Source: a virus. Taken from it: a stretch of DNA of 64,000 bases. How positions within the stretch are numbered: position 1 is the first letter of the stretch; every line of letters begins with the position of its first letter. Shown here piece after piece: positions 4,794-14,096 of this stretch. The notes under the pieces were generated by a model that was given only the letters and a program-made list of their open reading frames with translations, did not search any database and was not told where the DNA came from. The position numbers were made by a program, and so were the translations under genes. Location of the stretch: IMG/VR virus record IMGVR_UViG_3300042465_002598, positions 1 through 64,000 of that record; one strand, written 5' to 3'.

Positions 4794-5996
4794 TCAGGCG
4801 GGCACATACAGCGTGGTGCCGTTCGGCGCGGTGATGTTCTTGGTGCTGACGCACCACAGCACGGGCGCAGGCCACGTGCCCCAGTCCCTGCCGATGTAGC
4901 CATCGGTGAACTGAATGACGCAGTCGGGCTTGATGCCGTGCGCGTTCATGTAGCGCTGCATGCTGACCGGGTCGGTGCCGCCCCCGCCCTTGGGCTTGGT
5001 CACCTCGGCCAGCGTGGTGACCGCGTCACCCTCGTAGACCTCATGCCCTGCCACCTGTGCGTCCCAGTAGATCACATCGACCATCTCAGGCTTGACGACC
5101 TCGCACGCGGCCATGATCTCGGTCAGCGCACGACGAAGCTGCTCGGCACCGATGGAGCCTGAGGTGTCCACGCCAATGGTGATGCGTTTGGTGGACTCAG
5201 AGTACCGCGAGGGCAGCGTGGCGTCGATCGCCATGCCACGACGCGACGGACGCCGCCACGTGGACAGGTCAGCACCGGTACAGGTGGAACGCAGGAAGTC
5301 CTTCAGCATCTCGCGCCAATCGACCGCGACCTCCAGCAAGTCCTTCACGCTGCGGTCCAGGGACGCACCGGTCTTGCCAGCGATGATCGCTGCCTGACGC
5401 ACAGCGGTGTCCACCGCCTTCGCCACCTGAGCAGCCTGCGCTTCGCTCAGGGCCTCACCCACCTCGCCGTCCTTGTCGCCGCCCGACGCAGGGCGGTGCT
5501 CGTCCATCGGCTTGGCCTTGCCGCCCGAGGCAGACTTCTGCTGCTGTTGCTGCTGTTGCTTGGCCTGCTGCTTCATCCTCCGGTACACCTCACCCGCATC
5601 CATGCCGTCGTACTGGTAGTCGAGGATGGCGTCAGGCCACACGGTAAGGAACTTGTCAGCACCCGCACCGGCCTGCTTGTCCAGCATGATGTTGATCACC
5701 GCATCGCATGCCATGTTCGCAAGCTGCGGGTCTTCATCGAACAGCCGCTTCCACGTAATCATGTGCATGAACAGCACGTGGTAATACTCGTGCAGCACAA
5801 CGAAGCGCAGCGTCTGGTCATCCAGCGTGCCGATGAACTGCTTGCCGATGAGCACATCCCTGCCGTTTGTCGCAGCAGTGGGTAGGCCATCCACGAGCTT
5901 GCACTCGCCTTCCATCATCAGGCCGTTGAGGGCCATGAACCGTGGGTCACGCATGATCGCAACCCGAGTCCGCAAGAGTCGATCTTCTGGGGACAT
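4794..5996 (-). CDS. Metallopeptidase-like plus VWA domain protein, 400 aa
   Basis: Residues 65-80 hold a zincin motif (H69-E70-Y-Y-H73), typical of the putative metallopeptidase domain that precedes VWA-like domains in bacteria. A low-complexity Lys/Gln linker at about 140-155 follows. The C-terminal VWA-like domain shows an intact MIDAS: D277-T-S279-G-S281, T341-D342 after four glycines, and FTDGY at 363-367. The next gene upstream is a MoxR-type AAA+ ATPase, the usual genetic partner of this family; such pairs are thought to remodel or chaperone target complexes with metal ions. What the phage targets is unknown. Start: TTAGGAG before ATG 5996. Confidence 0.85.
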   Translation of the reverse strand: MSPEDRLLRTRVAIMRDPRFMALNGLMMEGECKLVDGLPTAATNGRDVLIGKQFIGTLDDQTLRFVVLHEYYHVLFMHMITWKRLFDEDPQLANMACDAVINIMLDKQAGAGADKFLTVWPDAILDYQYDGMDAGEVYRRMKQQAKQQQQQQQKSASGGKAKPMDEHRPASGGDKDGEVGEALSEAQAAQVAKAVDTAVRQAAIIAGKTGASLDRSVKDLLEVAVDWREMLKDFLRSTCTGADLSTWRRPSRRGMAIDATLPSRYSESTKRITIGVDTSGSIGAEQLRRALTEIMAACEVVKPEMVDVIYWDAQVAGHEVYEGDAVTTLAEVTKPKGGGGTDPVSMQRYMNAHGIKPDCVIQFTDGYIGRDWGTWPAPVLWCVSTKNITAPNGTTLYVPA

Positions 5997-6005
5997 GTGA
6001 ATCTC

Positions 6006-6254
6006 CTAAAAAAGAATAGCCCGCGAGCCGTTGTCGTAGCCGTCGCCGTAGCCGTGACACTCACCACTTCTGGGGCCGCAATACGCATTGGCCTGCGTGA
6101 TGCCGCTACCATTGGCTCCGCCAAATCCGTCGCCGTGACGTAAACCATCACCGAAGAAGTGCTCGCCTTCCGACAGGACAGATGCGAGAGCTGTGTCCAC
6201 GCAAAGGCCCGAGCCATGCATAACGGCGTCGGCTAGGTACCAGATGAAGATCAC
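6006..6254 (-). CDS. Glycine-rich microprotein B (WYLADAVMHGSG type), 82 aa
   Basis: A GTG start at 6254 overlaps the TGA of the AAA+ gene (GTGA). The head reads (V)IFIWYLADAVMHGSG; the middle is Gly/Asp/Ala-rich (FFGDGLRHGDGFGG; CHGYGDGYDNGS) and the end is RAILF. The TAG stop is inside the TTAGGAG site of the VWA gene. It belongs to the same family as 4544-4771 and 7316-7543. Seventeen bases of the head are identical in DNA to those of the 7316-7543 copy. Function unknown. Confidence 0.55.
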   Translation of the reverse strand: MIFIWYLADAVMHGSGLCVDTALASVLSEGEHFFGDGLRHGDGFGGANGSGITQANAYCGPRSGECHGYGDGYDNGSRAILF

Positions 6255-7306
6255 TTCATCACCCAGTGATTGGCACGGACCCAATCGCCAAAGCTCTCGT
6301 TCAGCACGGCCCACTGCTTGCGGGAACGAAGCAACTGCGTGACAAACACGCACTGCATCTCTGTCGGCAGCCGCTTGATGTAGACCATCACGTTGTCGAG
6401 CGTGTCCCTATCGGTACGCATCACTGCACGATAGACGGTCATCATCATGGCCGCAGCGTTGTCGGGCACCTTGGCCTTGTCCGGGGCGTTGATGATCGTT
6501 GCCCAGGCAGGCAGCTTGTCGGCCAGTTCCACGAAGGCCATCAGGTCGAGCGCAGCGCGGGGGCCGAGGTTGCCAGCGATGGCAGCCAGGGTGATGTCGG
6601 CATCACCCACTGCCGTGCGGCGATCCTCACGCAGTTCGATGCTGGCGAGGTACAGCGAGCGGGGCGTGCAGAACGAGCGGCGCTTCTCCCGGGGGTGGAA
6701 CCCGTACGGGAAGTCCTCGGGGCGGTCGTGGTCCTTGAAGCTACCGAAGAGCCGTCCCTGCTCCTCCTTGGCCCAGGCCAGCATCGCCTCGTTCACACCG
6801 TTGGCGAGGCCCCACTCCACCCACTCGTCTGCGGTCGGGTTGCGCATCTCGATGAACGACACACGGTTGCAGGCATGGGCTTGGAAGAGATCACCCACAC
6901 CCTCGGCACCGAGGTTGGTCGCACCGAACACGATGCTGCCCTCGGGCAGAGCCTCTGCACCGACGCGGCGCTCCAGCATGACCGGGAGAAGCGCATTCTG
7001 CACCGGGCGGGACGCCTTGCCGATCTCGTCCAGCAGCACCACCATCGGCTTGCTGCGGTCACCCATGAGCAGTACGTTGGGAAGGAACTCGACCACGCGG
7101 CGCTCCTTGTCGATGGCAGGAATCTGCACATCGCCCACATCCCACTGCGTGCAGTCCACGGTCACCACGTTGTACTTCGTGGTGTTGAACATCTTCACGA
7201 TGCTCGACTTACCGGAGCCCATCGGACCCTCGATGATGTAGGTCTTATCCACACCGTTGATGTTGATGAGCTTGAAAATCTGATTGATGTTGAGCTTGAG
7301 GTTCAT
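6251..7306 (-). CDS. MoxR-type AAA+ ATPase, 351 aa
   Basis: Walker A is GPMGSGKSS at 27-35, Walker B VVLLDEIGKA at 89-98, and sensor 1 GATN at 128-131. The arrangement and length match the MoxR/RavA branch of AAA+ proteins, which work with VWA partners. The gene lies just upstream of the VWA gene, separated only by microprotein B. It probably hydrolyses ATP to remodel a substrate chosen by the VWA protein. Start ATG 7306 follows CTAGGAGTGAACA. No obvious missing motif; activity is likely intact. Confidence 0.85.
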   Translation of the reverse strand: MNLKLNINQIFKLININGVDKTYIIEGPMGSGKSSIVKMFNTTKYNVVTVDCTQWDVGDVQIPAIDKERRVVEFLPNVLLMGDRSKPMVVLLDEIGKASRPVQNALLPVMLERRVGAEALPEGSIVFGATNLGAEGVGDLFQAHACNRVSFIEMRNPTADEWVEWGLANGVNEAMLAWAKEEQGRLFGSFKDHDRPEDFPYGFHPREKRRSFCTPRSLYLASIELREDRRTAVGDADITLAAIAGNLGPRAALDLMAFVELADKLPAWATIINAPDKAKVPDNAAAMMMTVYRAVMRTDRDTLDNVMVYIKRLPTEMQCVFVTQLLRSRKQWAVLNESFGDWVRANHWVMK

Positions 7307-7829: not shown

Positions 7830-8768
7830 TTACAGCGCAAACTTGTCGAGGATTTCCTGCATAGCAGTCTTCGTGCTGCGTTGCAGTTCGGGGGACTCCC
7901 TGAGGGAGTCAATGTCGATGCGACTCAGTGCCGTCTCCAGATCACGCCGCGCTTCCTCCAGGCGCGGGTCGTTGGTCACGTTGAGGTCTTTGAGCAGATC
8001 GGTCAGGGCAAGGCCCTGCTCCAGCATGCTGTCGTACAGCTTGGGACGGCGCTTCTTCTTGATCTCGACCGACACCACGGTGCCTGCGTCGTCCGTGGTC
8101 TTGATCTCCTCCACCTGATCCGGGTCGTACGCCAGCACGGCGTCCATGCGCTCACGCACCCACTCGACTTGGGTCTTGACCCGCTCCCACGCGTCGGCCA
8201 CAGCGCCTGACACCCGTTCCGCGATCTGCCGCTCATACTGCTCGGCCAGTTGGTTCTTCGCCTCGTTACCGATGTCCACGCGGAAGTCACCCGACATAGG
8301 CAGGGGCTCGATCACGTACGAGAAGCGGAACTTGGCAGCCACCTCGTCCTCGTGCGGGTACTCGCTGCGGTCGAACAGCGCGCCCATCTCGAAAGCCTGC
8401 TTGCTGATCTCGGTGCTGTAGGTACCGATGAAGGCGCGCACCAGCGCGTTGAAGCGCTGCTCGTACTTGGCAGCCTGACTCGTGATGTCGAGGTACTGGG
8501 CTACGGTGATGAGACGCCGACCGTTGTCGTCCCACGGCAGGGTCACCGTGTTGAACCACTGGCGCACCTCGCCGCGCAGGGACTTGATGGCTTCCAGCGC
8601 AGGGCACTCACTGAACAGGTGCTTGTGCACCGTGGCAGCGCGCTTGCTGCGTGCGCCCTTGGAGACGGCCACCTCCTCGGCAGTCTTCTTGTCTTGCTTC
8701 CGTGCTTCCCACACGGAGATGTTGATGCTGCCCAGCATGGCAGCGGCGGTGATGGATGTGATACTCAT
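7830..8768 (-). CDS. Hypothetical helical protein of the MoxR-VWA cassette, 312 aa
   Basis: First large gene of the cassette. It has no recognisable enzymatic motif. The protein is largely helical and charged, with probable coiled coils around residues 170-215 (EAKNQLAEQYERQIAERV) and in the C-terminal third. Position suggests it is an adaptor or substrate for the AAA+/VWA pair, which is inference from gene order. Start ATG 8768 follows CTAGGAGTTCCC. No membrane segment or signal peptide. Confidence 0.65.
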   Translation of the reverse strand: MSITSITAAAMLGSINISVWEARKQDKKTAEEVAVSKGARSKRAATVHKHLFSECPALEAIKSLRGEVRQWFNTVTLPWDDNGRRLITVAQYLDITSQAAKYEQRFNALVRAFIGTYSTEISKQAFEMGALFDRSEYPHEDEVAAKFRFSYVIEPLPMSGDFRVDIGNEAKNQLAEQYERQIAERVSGAVADAWERVKTQVEWVRERMDAVLAYDPDQVEEIKTTDDAGTVVSVEIKKKRRPKLYDSMLEQGLALTDLLKDLNVTNDPRLEEARRDLETALSRIDIDSLRESPELQRSTKTAMQEILDKFAL

Positions 8769-10450: not shown

Positions 10451-10714
10451 TCAGTGGTACGCGATCACTTCGCCGTCAGCGAAGCACGCCTCGATCACCT
10501 GAAACGTGAACGTCGCACGGTCGGCACCCATCGTGCCATCGTCGCCGCGCCAGCAGAACTCGGGGTAACCCGCGTCGATGCACGGGCCGGGAGCGTTCAT
10601 CGTCTCCCACTCATCGATCTCGGCAATCTCTGCGTCGGTGTAGCCCGACGCGTCACCGTTGATGAGGTACGGTGCCCAGTGGATGGGCAGCAGGAAGGTC
10701 TCGGTCTTGATCAC
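10451..10714 (-). CDS. Hypothetical early protein, 87 aa
   Basis: A small acidic protein. The pattern ETFLLPIHWAPYLINGDASG, then AEIDEWE, and ending TFQVIEACFADG recurs in phages and some bacteria as an uncharacterised family. Start ATG 10714 overlaps the upstream stop. It could be a host-interaction protein of DNA-mimic character (many Asp/Glu), but that is a guess. Confidence 0.65.
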   Translation of the reverse strand: MIKTETFLLPIHWAPYLINGDASGYTDAEIAEIDEWETMNAPGPCIDAGYPEFCWRGDDGTMGADRATFTFQVIEACFADGEVIAYH

Positions 10715-11026: not shown

Positions 11027-11099
11027 CTGCTTAGAGCACTCCACACCTCACGCCTGCCTAGGCAGGCAGCGGACGCAAAGCGCGAAGCGCTCTAAGCAG
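11027..11099 (-). promoter_or_regulatory. Structured leader RNA of the left early operon
   Basis: CTGCTTAGAGC (11027-11037) and GCTCTAAGCAG (11089-11099) form a perfect 11-bp stem. Inside it, GCCTGCCTAGGCAGGC (11052-11067) is a 16-bp perfect palindrome and a GCGC-rich hairpin follows. The structure ends about 30 bases before the first start codon. The rest of the leader (11100-11470) has no gene; it contains two TGCAC/GTGCA hairpins near 11140 and 11227. It may be an attenuator, stability element or regulatory RNA. Confidence 0.55.
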
Positions 11100-11425
11100 G
11101 GGGCGTTTAGGCAGGCGAGTATTTCCGAACCTACCATGCACCCCCGTGCAGGATATTTGTAATATCACCGAAGGATTCTTACCCCCAAGTGATACGCAGG
11201 GAGTGTTACGGATTATTCATGATGTGCTGCACCCTTGCACGGGGATACATTCACCTTCTTACCTGCCACAGACCTCTTACTGCGTGATGAAACACGCACG
11301 GGTTGATGTGACTCAGCAATAACACAAGTCATGAACGATAGCGCTGTGGATCACTGCGCGACTGAACACTATGCCTACGGCGCCTCACGGCGTTGATGCG
11401 ATACGTGAATTGTTAGAGAGCGGGA

Positions 11426-11583: not shown

Positions 11584-12585
11584 CTAGTCGGTTTCGGCAC
11601 CTCGGCGACGGCGGGGAACGGGTGTCGGCATGGGCGAAGCAGTGGGATGCTTCTCCCTCCACGCTTCGTAATGATCTTTGATCTCAGGCAGGGTCTTCAG
11701 GATCGCAGGGAGTTCAACGACGGTCATCCCTTCGATCAGTTTCCGCCCTATCTTACTTACGATAACTATGTTACCAGAGATGAAAGGCTTGTTCCTGTCG
11801 TATCTAGCTATACGCGGCGAGTGGAATGACTTACGCAGAACCCAATCGAACTCCTCCCCCGTCGCTGGGCAGTGGGTGGGGTACCCGCCTGGGGCGTACT
11901 CGTCATGCAGGTCGGCCAGAACGAACTTGTGCCCTATGCCTCGCCTGTTTGCGTCTGTACGGCACTCCTCAACGGAGGTTTCGAGCGTCTTCCACTTCAA
12001 CTCATGCTCATACGCCTTGCTGAACTTGTGCGGAGTGGTGTCTCCCTTGGCACGCTGCGCGGTGTTCTCCACTGCTCGCAGGACGGGTATGCCACGCTCG
12101 GTCAGCACCTTACGCACGAGGTCTTCGGATACGCACATGCGGGAGGCAGTGGTCTTCAAGGCGCGGTACCGCACAGCGTCGGGCGTCAACGTGCTGGGGT
12201 CCCGGTCCCGCTGGCGGGTGTACATGCGCTCGATGATGTTGTCACGGGCTCTGCGCAGGGCCTCCTGGGTGGAGGCACCGCCGAAGGCTTTGTAGTGGTC
12301 GTGCGCGACCTGCGCATGGTCGTGGGGCGATATGTTGTGCGCGATGCGTTCGGCGGGGGTGTCAGGGGGGTAGGTGTGAGCAGCGGCAGTGAGGACGCCG
12401 CCGTAGATCGATAGGGGGACGATGAAGTTTTCAAAGGCAGCGTCACCGGAGAAGGCAGGGACGGGCTGGCCCCAGACGGCGCGGGGGTTGAGGGCGTTGG
12501 AGCGGTAGATGACTTGGGGACGGCCATCGGGGGTGGTGCGCACGGTGAGGCGACGGCAGGCGAGGTGGGGGTCGGGGTGCTGCAT
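11584..12585 (-). CDS. HNH-like endonuclease or DNA-binding protein, 333 aa
   Basis: The start at 12585 (MQHPDPHLACRRL) is preferred over 12624 because CGGAG lies upstream. The C-terminal 120 residues carry an HNH-type pattern: HCPATGEEFDW, then ARYDRNKPFISGNIVIVS, where the Asp-Arg, the Gly-Asn and the strand spacing match phage HNH enzymes. The first catalytic His is not clear. The middle has a helical section (RMCVSEDLVRKVLTERGI) that could be an HTH. It sits between the early promoter and the candidate origin. Role: homing or origin-region nuclease, or a regulator that kept the fold. Moderately sure of the family, not of activity. Confidence 0.6.
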   Translation of the reverse strand: MQHPDPHLACRRLTVRTTPDGRPQVIYRSNALNPRAVWGQPVPAFSGDAAFENFIVPLSIYGGVLTAAAHTYPPDTPAERIAHNISPHDHAQVAHDHYKAFGGASTQEALRRARDNIIERMYTRQRDRDPSTLTPDAVRYRALKTTASRMCVSEDLVRKVLTERGIPVLRAVENTAQRAKGDTTPHKFSKAYEHELKWKTLETSVEECRTDANRRGIGHKFVLADLHDEYAPGGYPTHCPATGEEFDWVLRKSFHSPRIARYDRNKPFISGNIVIVSKIGRKLIEGMTVVELPAILKTLPEIKDHYEAWREKHPTASPMPTPVPRRRRGAETD

Positions 12586-13344
12586 GGGGAGGGCTCCGGG
12601 GGAGAGTTGAGGTGGGGGGAGCATAGCATGGGGATCGGAGATTGGGTAGAAAAATGTTGAATGATAGGGATAATTGAGTGCAAAAGTCTTGCATTGAGTC
12701 GCTGTTTTGGGCAGGACGGCACGCGTAGTTGCCCGGATAACATCCGGGTTTGTTGGGGGAATTTCTCGATCCAGTTTTTGGAAAAACGGTCTTTTTTGTA
12801 TTCAGTTTTTCATGTAAATGTGGATAACTCCTGTGGATAAGTCGTCAAAACAGGCAAAAGTGTTGCGTGGTGGCTACAAAACCGGGGAATGTTCTGGAAA
12901 GTTCTAAATTCTGAGGGGTGCTTGGAACACGGCAAGTTGTTGATTTATAAAGGAAAAGTGGAGTTATCCACAGGAATGTGGTTTGTGTCAGCCATAATCA
13001 TTCAGTCCAGGGGAGCTTGCCCCCTCATTGAGAACGTGGAAAACCGGGGTTTCCGGGGGTTTCGATTTAGGGGAACTACCAACTGGGATATGAATGAAAT
13101 TCTAGAAGAAGAACTTAGAACAAAGGAACAAACCGGCCCGGGCTGGCCCGCTGCCTTCCTCGCCCCTGCTTGGGACCGGGTGTCGGCGTGGGGCGAAAGT
13201 TAGTAAGCTTCCTAACTTTTCTGCGCTGACAAAGCGCCGCACGGCGTGCGCAGCATGCGTGGGCTCGCGTGCAGGCGTTGGGGCCTCGTACTCGCGTGCT
13301 GGCGTGCCGCTCGCGTACTCTTGACACCCGGTCCCGACCGGACA
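12586..13344. other. Candidate replication origin region with DnaA boxes
   Basis: No convincing gene. It contains three perfect DnaA boxes: TGTGGATAA at 12819-12827 and 12832-12840, and the inverse TTATCCACA at 12964-12972. An AT-rich stretch (12780-12820) lies beside the first pair. Direct repeats ATTGAGT at 12673-12679 and 12693-12699 flank GCAAAAGTCTTGC. A hairpin CCCGGAT/ATCCGGG is at 12732-12748. A 13-bp inverted repeat pairs 13172-13184 with 13323-13335. This combination is what a DnaA-dependent origin looks like. Confidence 0.55.
13199..13216. promoter_or_regulatory. 18-bp near-palindrome, copy 1
   Basis: GTTAGTAAGCTTCCTAAC differs by one base from the perfect palindrome at 14079-14096. 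The two sites flank the 13392-14006 gene and its terminator. Likely bound by the same dimeric protein. Confidence 0.6.
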
Positions 13345-13378
13345 CAAAAAAACCCCGCAGGGCGTGTACCCTGCGGGG
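13345..13378 (-). terminator. Rho-independent terminator of the 13392-14006 gene
   Basis: On the minus strand CCCCGCAGGG-TACACG-CCCTGCGGGG forms a ten-pair stem followed by seven T. It starts 13 bases after the stop of the gene. Very strong terminator. Confidence 0.92.
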
Positions 13379-13391
13379 TCTAGCGAAGCCG

Positions 13392-14006
13392 TTAGGCTTT
13401 GCGATGCGCCCTTATCAGGGCGATGCATTCCATCAGCGCGTTTTCGAACTTGTCCACGTTTGCAACATCCACGAGTTTCGTTTTGTTAGCTGCGAACCCT
13501 TGCAGGATGACGACAGGGTCGGTGGATTCAACGGGCTTTTCTTCCGCCCTACCCTTCTTTGTGCGTACCTTGTCGGGATTCTGTACTCGGTCAACGTACC
13601 GGCGCACAAGGCCGAAGATGCTGCCCACTTGTTGCTGCCAATACTTGCGGGTTTGACTCAGGACCTTATCGTCGGCATCCCGCAGGGCTTCACGGCTCAT
13701 GCCCACAAGCTCTCCGACAGTGTAGGTACCGTTCGTGAATTTCATGGGCTTGACGGAAGCGCTGAGGGCTTCAGTTATCATGCGCTCAATAGTAGCGATG
13801 AGCGAATCATCTTGCGCCGGGTTCGGCTCATCCTTCGTCCCCTTCGTCAGGGCTTCAACGCGTGCGCCTGCCTTGTAGAGAGACTTGCCGGCCTTCGCCC
13901 AACGATCCCGTGCGGTATTCTCGGCGTTGACGGCAGAGGCAAGGGTAGTACCGCACTGTTCTGCAACAGCTTCGGCAACAAGGGAAAGGGCAAACTGCTT
14001 TGTCAT
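13392..14006 (-). CDS. Single-gene unit of unknown function, 204 aa
   Basis: The gene stands alone, with its own start region and a strong terminator. The protein is helical and charged, with a long basic middle (RKYWQQQVGSIFGLVRRYVD; KVRTKKGRAEEKP) and no enzymatic motif. Start ATG 14006 follows AAAGGATAG. An 18-bp palindrome covers the probable -35 of its promoter and a near copy lies past its terminator, so it may be autoregulated and may itself be the DNA-binding protein; that is inference. Position beside the candidate origin and opposite the late operon suggests a regulatory or replication role. Confidence 0.7.
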   Translation of the reverse strand: MTKQFALSLVAEAVAEQCGTTLASAVNAENTARDRWAKAGKSLYKAGARVEALTKGTKDEPNPAQDDSLIATIERMITEALSASVKPMKFTNGTYTVGELVGMSREALRDADDKVLSQTRKYWQQQVGSIFGLVRRYVDRVQNPDKVRTKKGRAEEKPVESTDPVVILQGFAANKTKLVDVANVDKFENALMECIALIRAHRKA

Positions 14007-14057: not shown

Positions 14058-14086
14058 ACTATAGGGAAACGCGTGTTTGTTAGGAA
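14058..14086 (-). promoter_or_regulatory. Putative promoter of the 13392-14006 gene
   Basis: On the minus strand TATAGT (14063-14058) lies 17 bases from TTCCTA (14086-14081). The -10 is good and the -35 weak, which fits a regulated promoter. The leader to ATG 14006 would be about 45 nt. Confidence 0.45.
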
Positions 14087-14096
14087 GCTTCCTAAC
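14079..14096. promoter_or_regulatory. 18-bp perfect palindrome, copy 2 (operator candidate)
   Basis: GTTAGGAAGCTTCCTAAC is a perfect palindrome overlapping the putative -35 of the 14006 gene. A protein bound here would block that promoter. Confidence 0.65.

Follow-up and report, generated by a model that had tools for sequence, protein, structure and literature searches.

Does a phage that encodes its own polymerase and primase/helicase also make use of the replication initiator of its host, DnaA? The question is raised by a noncoding control region in the window, by which we mean the whole stretch of 64,000 nucleotides analyzed here: bases 1-64000 of the 65,260-base IMG/VR virus record IMGVR_UViG_3300042465_002598. 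The genome is that of a podovirus-like, probably lytic phage of ~65 kb. Its genes are read leftward in two stretches, ~65 to 52 kb and 14 kb to base 1, and rightward in the stretch between them, from ~14.3 to 52 kb. The terminase, portal and capsid genes belong to the rightward block; polymerase A, a DUF927 primase/helicase, a helicase and exonucleases belong to the leftward block. The initial annotation had placed a candidate DnaA-dependent origin at 12586-13344 and had pointed out that the phage carries its own polymerase and primase/helicase, and we identified both of these genes. The proposed region covers the DnaA boxes but also runs into the start of the neighboring gene; the gap proper is 12625-13391. 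Features of the gap and its left flank are as follows:

12625-13391, no strand: noncoding control region of 767 bp between endo346 and p204, a putative origin site, delimited from the ORF map
11584-12624, minus strand: endo346, putative endonuclease and first gene to the left of the gap (PHROG 3322 endonuclease, E 2e-5)
12762-12818, plus strand: AT-rich, low-stability stretch with two 18-bp direct repeats, a candidate DNA unwinding element from the stability scan
12819-12827, minus strand: DnaA box 1, exact TTATCCACA
12832-12840, minus strand: DnaA box 2, exact TTATCCACA, 13 bp from box 1
12924-12929, plus strand: GGAACA repeat, one of two within the gap
12933-12945, minus strand: IHF consensus site, AATCAACAACTTG, between boxes 2 and 3
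12964-12972, plus strand: DnaA box 3, exact TTATCCACA, inverted
13125-13130, plus strand: GGAACA repeat, in a AGAACAAAGGAACA cluster

The boxes are in the left part of the gap; the right part (~13246-13380) is conserved in all relatives compared. Three perfect boxes are indeed found within 154 bp, two of them direct and 13 bp apart and one inverted. Markov models of the window give 0.1-0.2 exact copies of TTATCCACA expected in 64 kb, and elsewhere in the 65,260-base record there is one, at 7245 and within a gene. The probability of three exact boxes within 154 bp anywhere in the window is ~1e-9 to 1e-7 in a scan calculation, so that the very low chance expectation claimed for the cluster is borne out, at a value of at most ~1e-7. 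Between 8 and 40 kb, TTATCCACA is the sole 9-mer with three non-overlapping copies inside ~155 bp. Longer inverted repeats include the boxes, namely TGTGGATAACTCC/GGAGTTATCCACA (13 of 13 positions matching) and TCCTGTGGATAAGTC/GAGTTATCCACAGGA (14 of 15).

The other elements proposed to accompany the boxes can also be located. By nearest-neighbor energies, only one distinct 50-mer of the record is less stable than the one at 12791-12840, which adjoins the boxes; this confirms the AT-rich stretch. The short direct repeats are present as an 18-bp pair, TTTCTCGATCCAGTTTTT/TTTTTGTATTCAGTTTTT, at 12762 and 12793, and as GCAAAAGTCTTGC/GCAAAAGTGTTGC; the hairpin, CCCGGAT-AAC-ATCCGGG near 12730, can be read directly from the sequence. 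The IHF site is the only match to WATCAANNNNTTR, the consensus given in PMC10380432, in the 65-kb record. As a separate observation, a 24-mer over this site, AAGTTGTTGATTTATAAAGGAAAA, has an exact copy in an apparent intergenic stretch of an unrelated phage of 37% GC (L353-L358). IHF sites would suggest a proteobacterial host for our phage.

The order of elements in the phage is thus the unstable stretch, boxes at 12819(-) and 12832(-), IHF at 12933(-) and a box at 12964(+). When E. coli oriC (L365) is scanned in the same way, its least stable stretch is at 341-390, and next come two copies of TTATCCACA, 410(-) and 590(+), with an IHF-like site between them at 437(+). The succession of melting element, TTATCCACA(-), IHF site and TTATCCACA(+) is the same in both, and the span is similar. 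There are also differences. Additional boxes of low affinity are present in E. coli oriC (PMC10380432), where the start of the IHF-like site is 27 bp from R1, whereas in the phage boxes 1 and 2 form a 13-bp tandem ~100 bp from the IHF site; the phage IHF site is on the opposite strand; and, unlike oriC, the phage module is accompanied by the phage's own replication proteins. The layout also resembles that of a plasmid origin using DnaA with IHF (PMC4980987, PMC10380432).

That the gap is a replication origin region, carrying in this lineage a compact DnaA module of the oriC type, is a reading whose chances we judge, from the sequence features, to be about evenly balanced, perhaps a touch on the doubtful side. 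Its parts fit together as follows. Host DnaA would occupy the tandem boxes next to the AT-rich stretch; IHF, at the single intervening site, would bend the DNA so that the inverted box 3 comes into contact; this contact would help to melt 12762-12818; and the melted DNA could then be used for loading the phage primase/helicase and polymerase. The binding of the proteins, the melting and the start of replication in the gap are what we infer from these signals. A complete phage replication initiator was not found among the encoded proteins. One 129-aa winged-helix protein (2179-2568) has weak matches to O-like phage replication initiators and is a candidate initiator.

Comparison with relatives shows which of these signals are kept. 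Apart from a terminase stretch of 129 bases, a DNA search of INPHARED phage records found no close relative; the portal had only distant homologs there, with 29-44% identity, and endo346 had no match among INPHARED phage proteins. The relatives compared are metagenomic contigs, many of them short, and provide 18 gaps including that of the window, several of them near-duplicates. In the nearest relative, L026, the gap is 94.6% identical and contains all three boxes at equal spacing, and because of this high identity the boxes of L026 add little independent evidence. L017 has a terminase (TerL) 99% identical to that of the window and a gap ~72% identical over the alignable part; only box 3 is kept there, and its start is 31 bp from that of the IHF site, as in the window. 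Boxes 1 and 2 belong to the left half of the gap, which only the window and L026 have in common. Where TerL is ~91% identical or lower, the gaps read contain no box even when one mismatch is allowed, except for a single-mismatch box, TTTTCCACA, in L048; in all, the 15 gaps other than those of the window, L026 and L017 have no exact box and one single-mismatch box among them. The three near-complete relatives, G001-G003, have no exact TTATCCACA box, and a wider search with endo346 added one new relative only, whose gap is also without boxes. Conservation in close relatives, which had been named as a check on the boxes, therefore went against them: L017 has one of three and relatives with TerL at or below ~91% have none, though L026 keeps them all. 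Being lineage-specific, the boxes cannot, as far as these gaps go, be the universal origin signal of the group. Because box conservation failed, membership of the gap among DnaA-dependent origins is not established, all of the evidence being from sequence.

Other signals recur more widely. The IHF site is found in 14 of the 18 gaps (window included), with fewer independent cases than that count because several gaps are near-duplicates; its orientation and position vary, and L048 has two. G001 has one IHF consensus, in the homologous gap, and G003 two, one of them in the gap; the single consensus of G002 is outside its gap, which is among the four without a site. Beyond the 18 gaps, an IHF site is also present in that of L361. 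Since the motif recurs amid changing surroundings, the comparison suggests that it is under selection. In all four genomes tested (the window and G001-G003), the first or second least stable 50-mer falls in the gap. Both the IHF and the stability tests are descriptive, because they were chosen after the region had been looked at. The GGAACA repeats are enriched but irregular in spacing in all four genomes, with 2 in the gap of the window versus 0.3 expected, and 5, 5 and 7 in those of G001-G003 versus 0.3-0.6. The signals shared by the group are unstable DNA and GGAACA repeats, together with, in most gaps, an IHF site.

Skew was also considered. A turn near 12.8 kb had been expected for an origin, and cumulative skew does turn in this vicinity: the minimum is at 10,657 for GC and at 14,081 for AT, and both maxima are near 52 kb. 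However, the AT-skew minima of the box-less G001-G003 are at the homologous place, where gene direction switches. Because gene direction switches at the same points, skew neither proves nor refutes an origin, and we set it aside as proof.

On its right side the gap adjoins the gene for p204, and several further features are connected with this protein:

13392-14006, minus strand: p204, a putative autoregulatory DNA-binding protein, with a variable N-terminal part and a conserved C-terminal part in the alignment
13172-13184, plus strand: left arm, GGGACCGGGTGTC, of a 13-bp perfect inverted repeat, the same or nearly the same in relatives
13196-13219, no strand: palindrome AAAGTTAGTAAGCTTCCTAACTTT, putative p204 operator, with a near-identical word at 14079-14096; replaced together with p204 in L026
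13323-13335, plus strand: right arm, GACACCCGGTCCC, of the 13-bp perfect inverted repeat, likewise the same or nearly the same in relatives
13350-13381, minus strand: p204 intrinsic terminator, a 14-bp stem followed by a T-run
14079-14096, no strand: palindrome GTTAGGAAGCTTCCTAAC, in the -35 position of what is probably the p204 promoter (-10 TATAGT), a promoter assigned by eye

The terminator includes a 31-base stretch that is exactly conserved in 10 viral contigs. Related palindromes are found in the gap and in the p204 promoter in most readable loci, and the class of palindrome tracks the class of the p204 N-terminal part. The class GTTAGNAAGNTTNCTAAC is found, with small variants, in the window, L010, L021, L025 and L039; a TTATAA-type class in L026 and L016; GTTATACASTGTATAAC in L044, L023, L035 and others; and GTTAACCGTGGTTAAC in L017 and L024. 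The clearest case is L026: its gap is nearly identical to that of the window, but its palindrome has been replaced, and so has the N-terminal part of its p204. By inference from these sequences, p204 is probably an autoregulatory DNA-binding protein whose specificity is swapped together with its operators. The protein has no Pfam, PHROG or PDB fold match, and so its candidacy as a known Rep, repressor or ParB was rejected; its AF2 model has a mean pLDDT of 80. Joint exchange of p204 and palindromic operators is seen between otherwise near-identical phages (L026, L016, L017, L024, L044, L023). Two further palindromes, GTTAAACGGTGTTTAAC and GTTAAACGCTGTTTAAC (8805 and 11426), one immediately upstream of a gene that starts at 8768 and the other in the same position relative to a noncoding RNA candidate described below, are similar to the operator class of other phages in the group.

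With p204 taken into account, the gap can be compared with the origins of iteron plasmids (P1, F, RK2), in which a plasmid protein is assisted by host DnaA (PMC4980987). The similarities are a small number of DnaA boxes next to AT-rich DNA, short repeats (here GGAACA) and an adjacent gene for a DNA-binding protein that is probably autoregulated. The differences are that no protein of a Rep family was identified in the phage, p204 being without a recognizable family or fold, and that the GGAACA repeats are irregular.

The most serious alternative, though one that we consider unlikely, is that the gap is a transcription control region with no replication start, serving as the promoter of the leftward block (endo346, the noncoding RNA and the early genes), where IHF, DnaA and p204 regulate expression and couple it to the state of the host. 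The gap lies between p204, which has a terminator, and endo346, both leftward; the p204-type palindrome of the p204 promoter recurs in the gap; and DnaA is itself a transcription regulator in E. coli, as PMC6015884 reports for uvrB. However, the leftward strand of the gap contains no match to the sigma-70 consensus, the gap is much longer than a promoter requires, and the extreme low stability and oriC-like order of elements are left unexplained.

Among known systems, the nearest alternative is E. coli datA, which is made up of these ingredients except for the melting element. In datA and DARS2, DnaA boxes and an IHF site are found in <200 bp of noncoding DNA (PMC10380432), and the minimal datA, an IHF site and four DnaA boxes in 187 bp (PMC10380432), is similar to the phage module in content and size. 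The boxes and IHF site of the phage might accordingly trap host DnaA or stimulate its ATP hydrolysis, blocking new rounds of host replication, and phage DNA at high copy would be an effective sink. The 22-mer containing the tandem boxes, TTATCCACAGGAGTTATCCACA, occurs in at least 119 genome contigs, among the matches listed mostly from Actinobacteria and mostly with just 2-4 boxes nearby, which also speaks for this reading. Still, datA as described is without a melting element (PMC10380432), whereas here unstable DNA adjoins the boxes; the box number differs, there being three only; the module is located on a phage; and the unstable DNA and usually the IHF site are kept in relatives without boxes. 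We regard titration as improbable. Given its spread over these mostly actinobacterial contigs, the 22-mer indicated nothing firm as a host marker.

Could the boxes instead be a neutral relic, such as a fragment captured by recombination, with no function related to DnaA? Boxes 1 and 2 do lie in the half of the gap that was evidently exchanged by recombination and is shared only with L026. On the other hand, the window and L026 both hold three exact 9-mers while ~5% of the surrounding gap has changed, and L017 retains the spacing from the IHF site to box 3, making this very unlikely. Least probable of all is a packaging (pac/cos) or partition site with the boxes as bystanders: a likely gene for the small terminase is ~1 kb away, conserved 13-bp inverted repeats flank the palindrome and some short contigs end near the gap, but the contig ends of the near-complete G001-G003 are located elsewhere, no partition ATPase or integrase was recognized among the proteins searched, and the DnaA and IHF sites are unexplained.

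For the proposal of a DnaA-dependent origin, then, the box excess, the unstable DNA, the IHF site and the oriC order are in favor, box conservation is against and skew is not decisive. Our best reading is a conserved origin-like control region to which a host-DnaA module was apparently added in this lineage. In the relatives the region would function with no DnaA boxes, DnaA being an accessory factor either gained here or lost by the others. A more elaborate version, that in a lytic phage with its own replisome a miniature oriC placed on a conserved IHF-containing origin couples firing, or the shut-off of host initiation, to DnaA in this lineage only, with a regulator and its operator swapped alongside, is speculative, and we would not expect all of it to hold.

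Phage origins with DnaA boxes have already been predicted, so that the kind is not new: in Pseudomonas phage vB_PseuGesM_254, an origin was predicted by Ori-Finder from DnaA boxes and AT-rich DNA (PMC11512268). That is a different phage and an Ori-Finder prediction, whereas here relatives, IHF sites and stability are compared. The unusual point is the apparent lineage-specific addition of DnaA boxes to a conserved control region with an IHF site. If the best reading is true, control by host DnaA has been added to an origin otherwise free of it, in a phage equipped with primase/helicase and polymerase of its own, and relatives with three, one or no boxes allow this evolutionary step to be examined by comparison. 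The homologous gap would also be the probable origin of related uncultured phages, a group in which we found none assigned.

Some unrelated viral contigs also have tight DnaA-box clusters with terminase genes nearby, for example L225 and L281 with 4 boxes each, a point in favor of the origin reading. Among the viral contigs with the tandem 22-mer, 74 of the 79 examined belong to one group, several of whose records are ~15 kb; in this group the site is usually inside an open frame of 150-200 codons. Across the phage group L221-L299 the 22-mer is widespread and often near a contig end, and L230, which is unrelated, has 24 boxes around its 22-mer site.

Other observations concern the leftward block. 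At 4794-5996, 6251-7306 and 1647-1985 the phage encodes a MoxR-VWA-like pair, consisting of a VWA-like/metallopeptidase (DUF2201) protein with an AAA ATPase, and a Rap1a-type immunity protein. A structured noncoding RNA candidate of ~330 nt is strongly conserved at 11068-11425 of the window (minus strand). An Rfam search of the window gave no match, and no Rfam family matched the candidate. It has homologs at L044:3070-3393, L021:955-1315, L010:8090-8450 and L011:7884-8240, a consensus fold of -98.9 kcal/mol and changes on both sides in 16 of 89 pairs. In relatives the RNA candidate starts with CGCTCTTTAACA, which we take to be similar to the boxA antitermination signal of rRNA.
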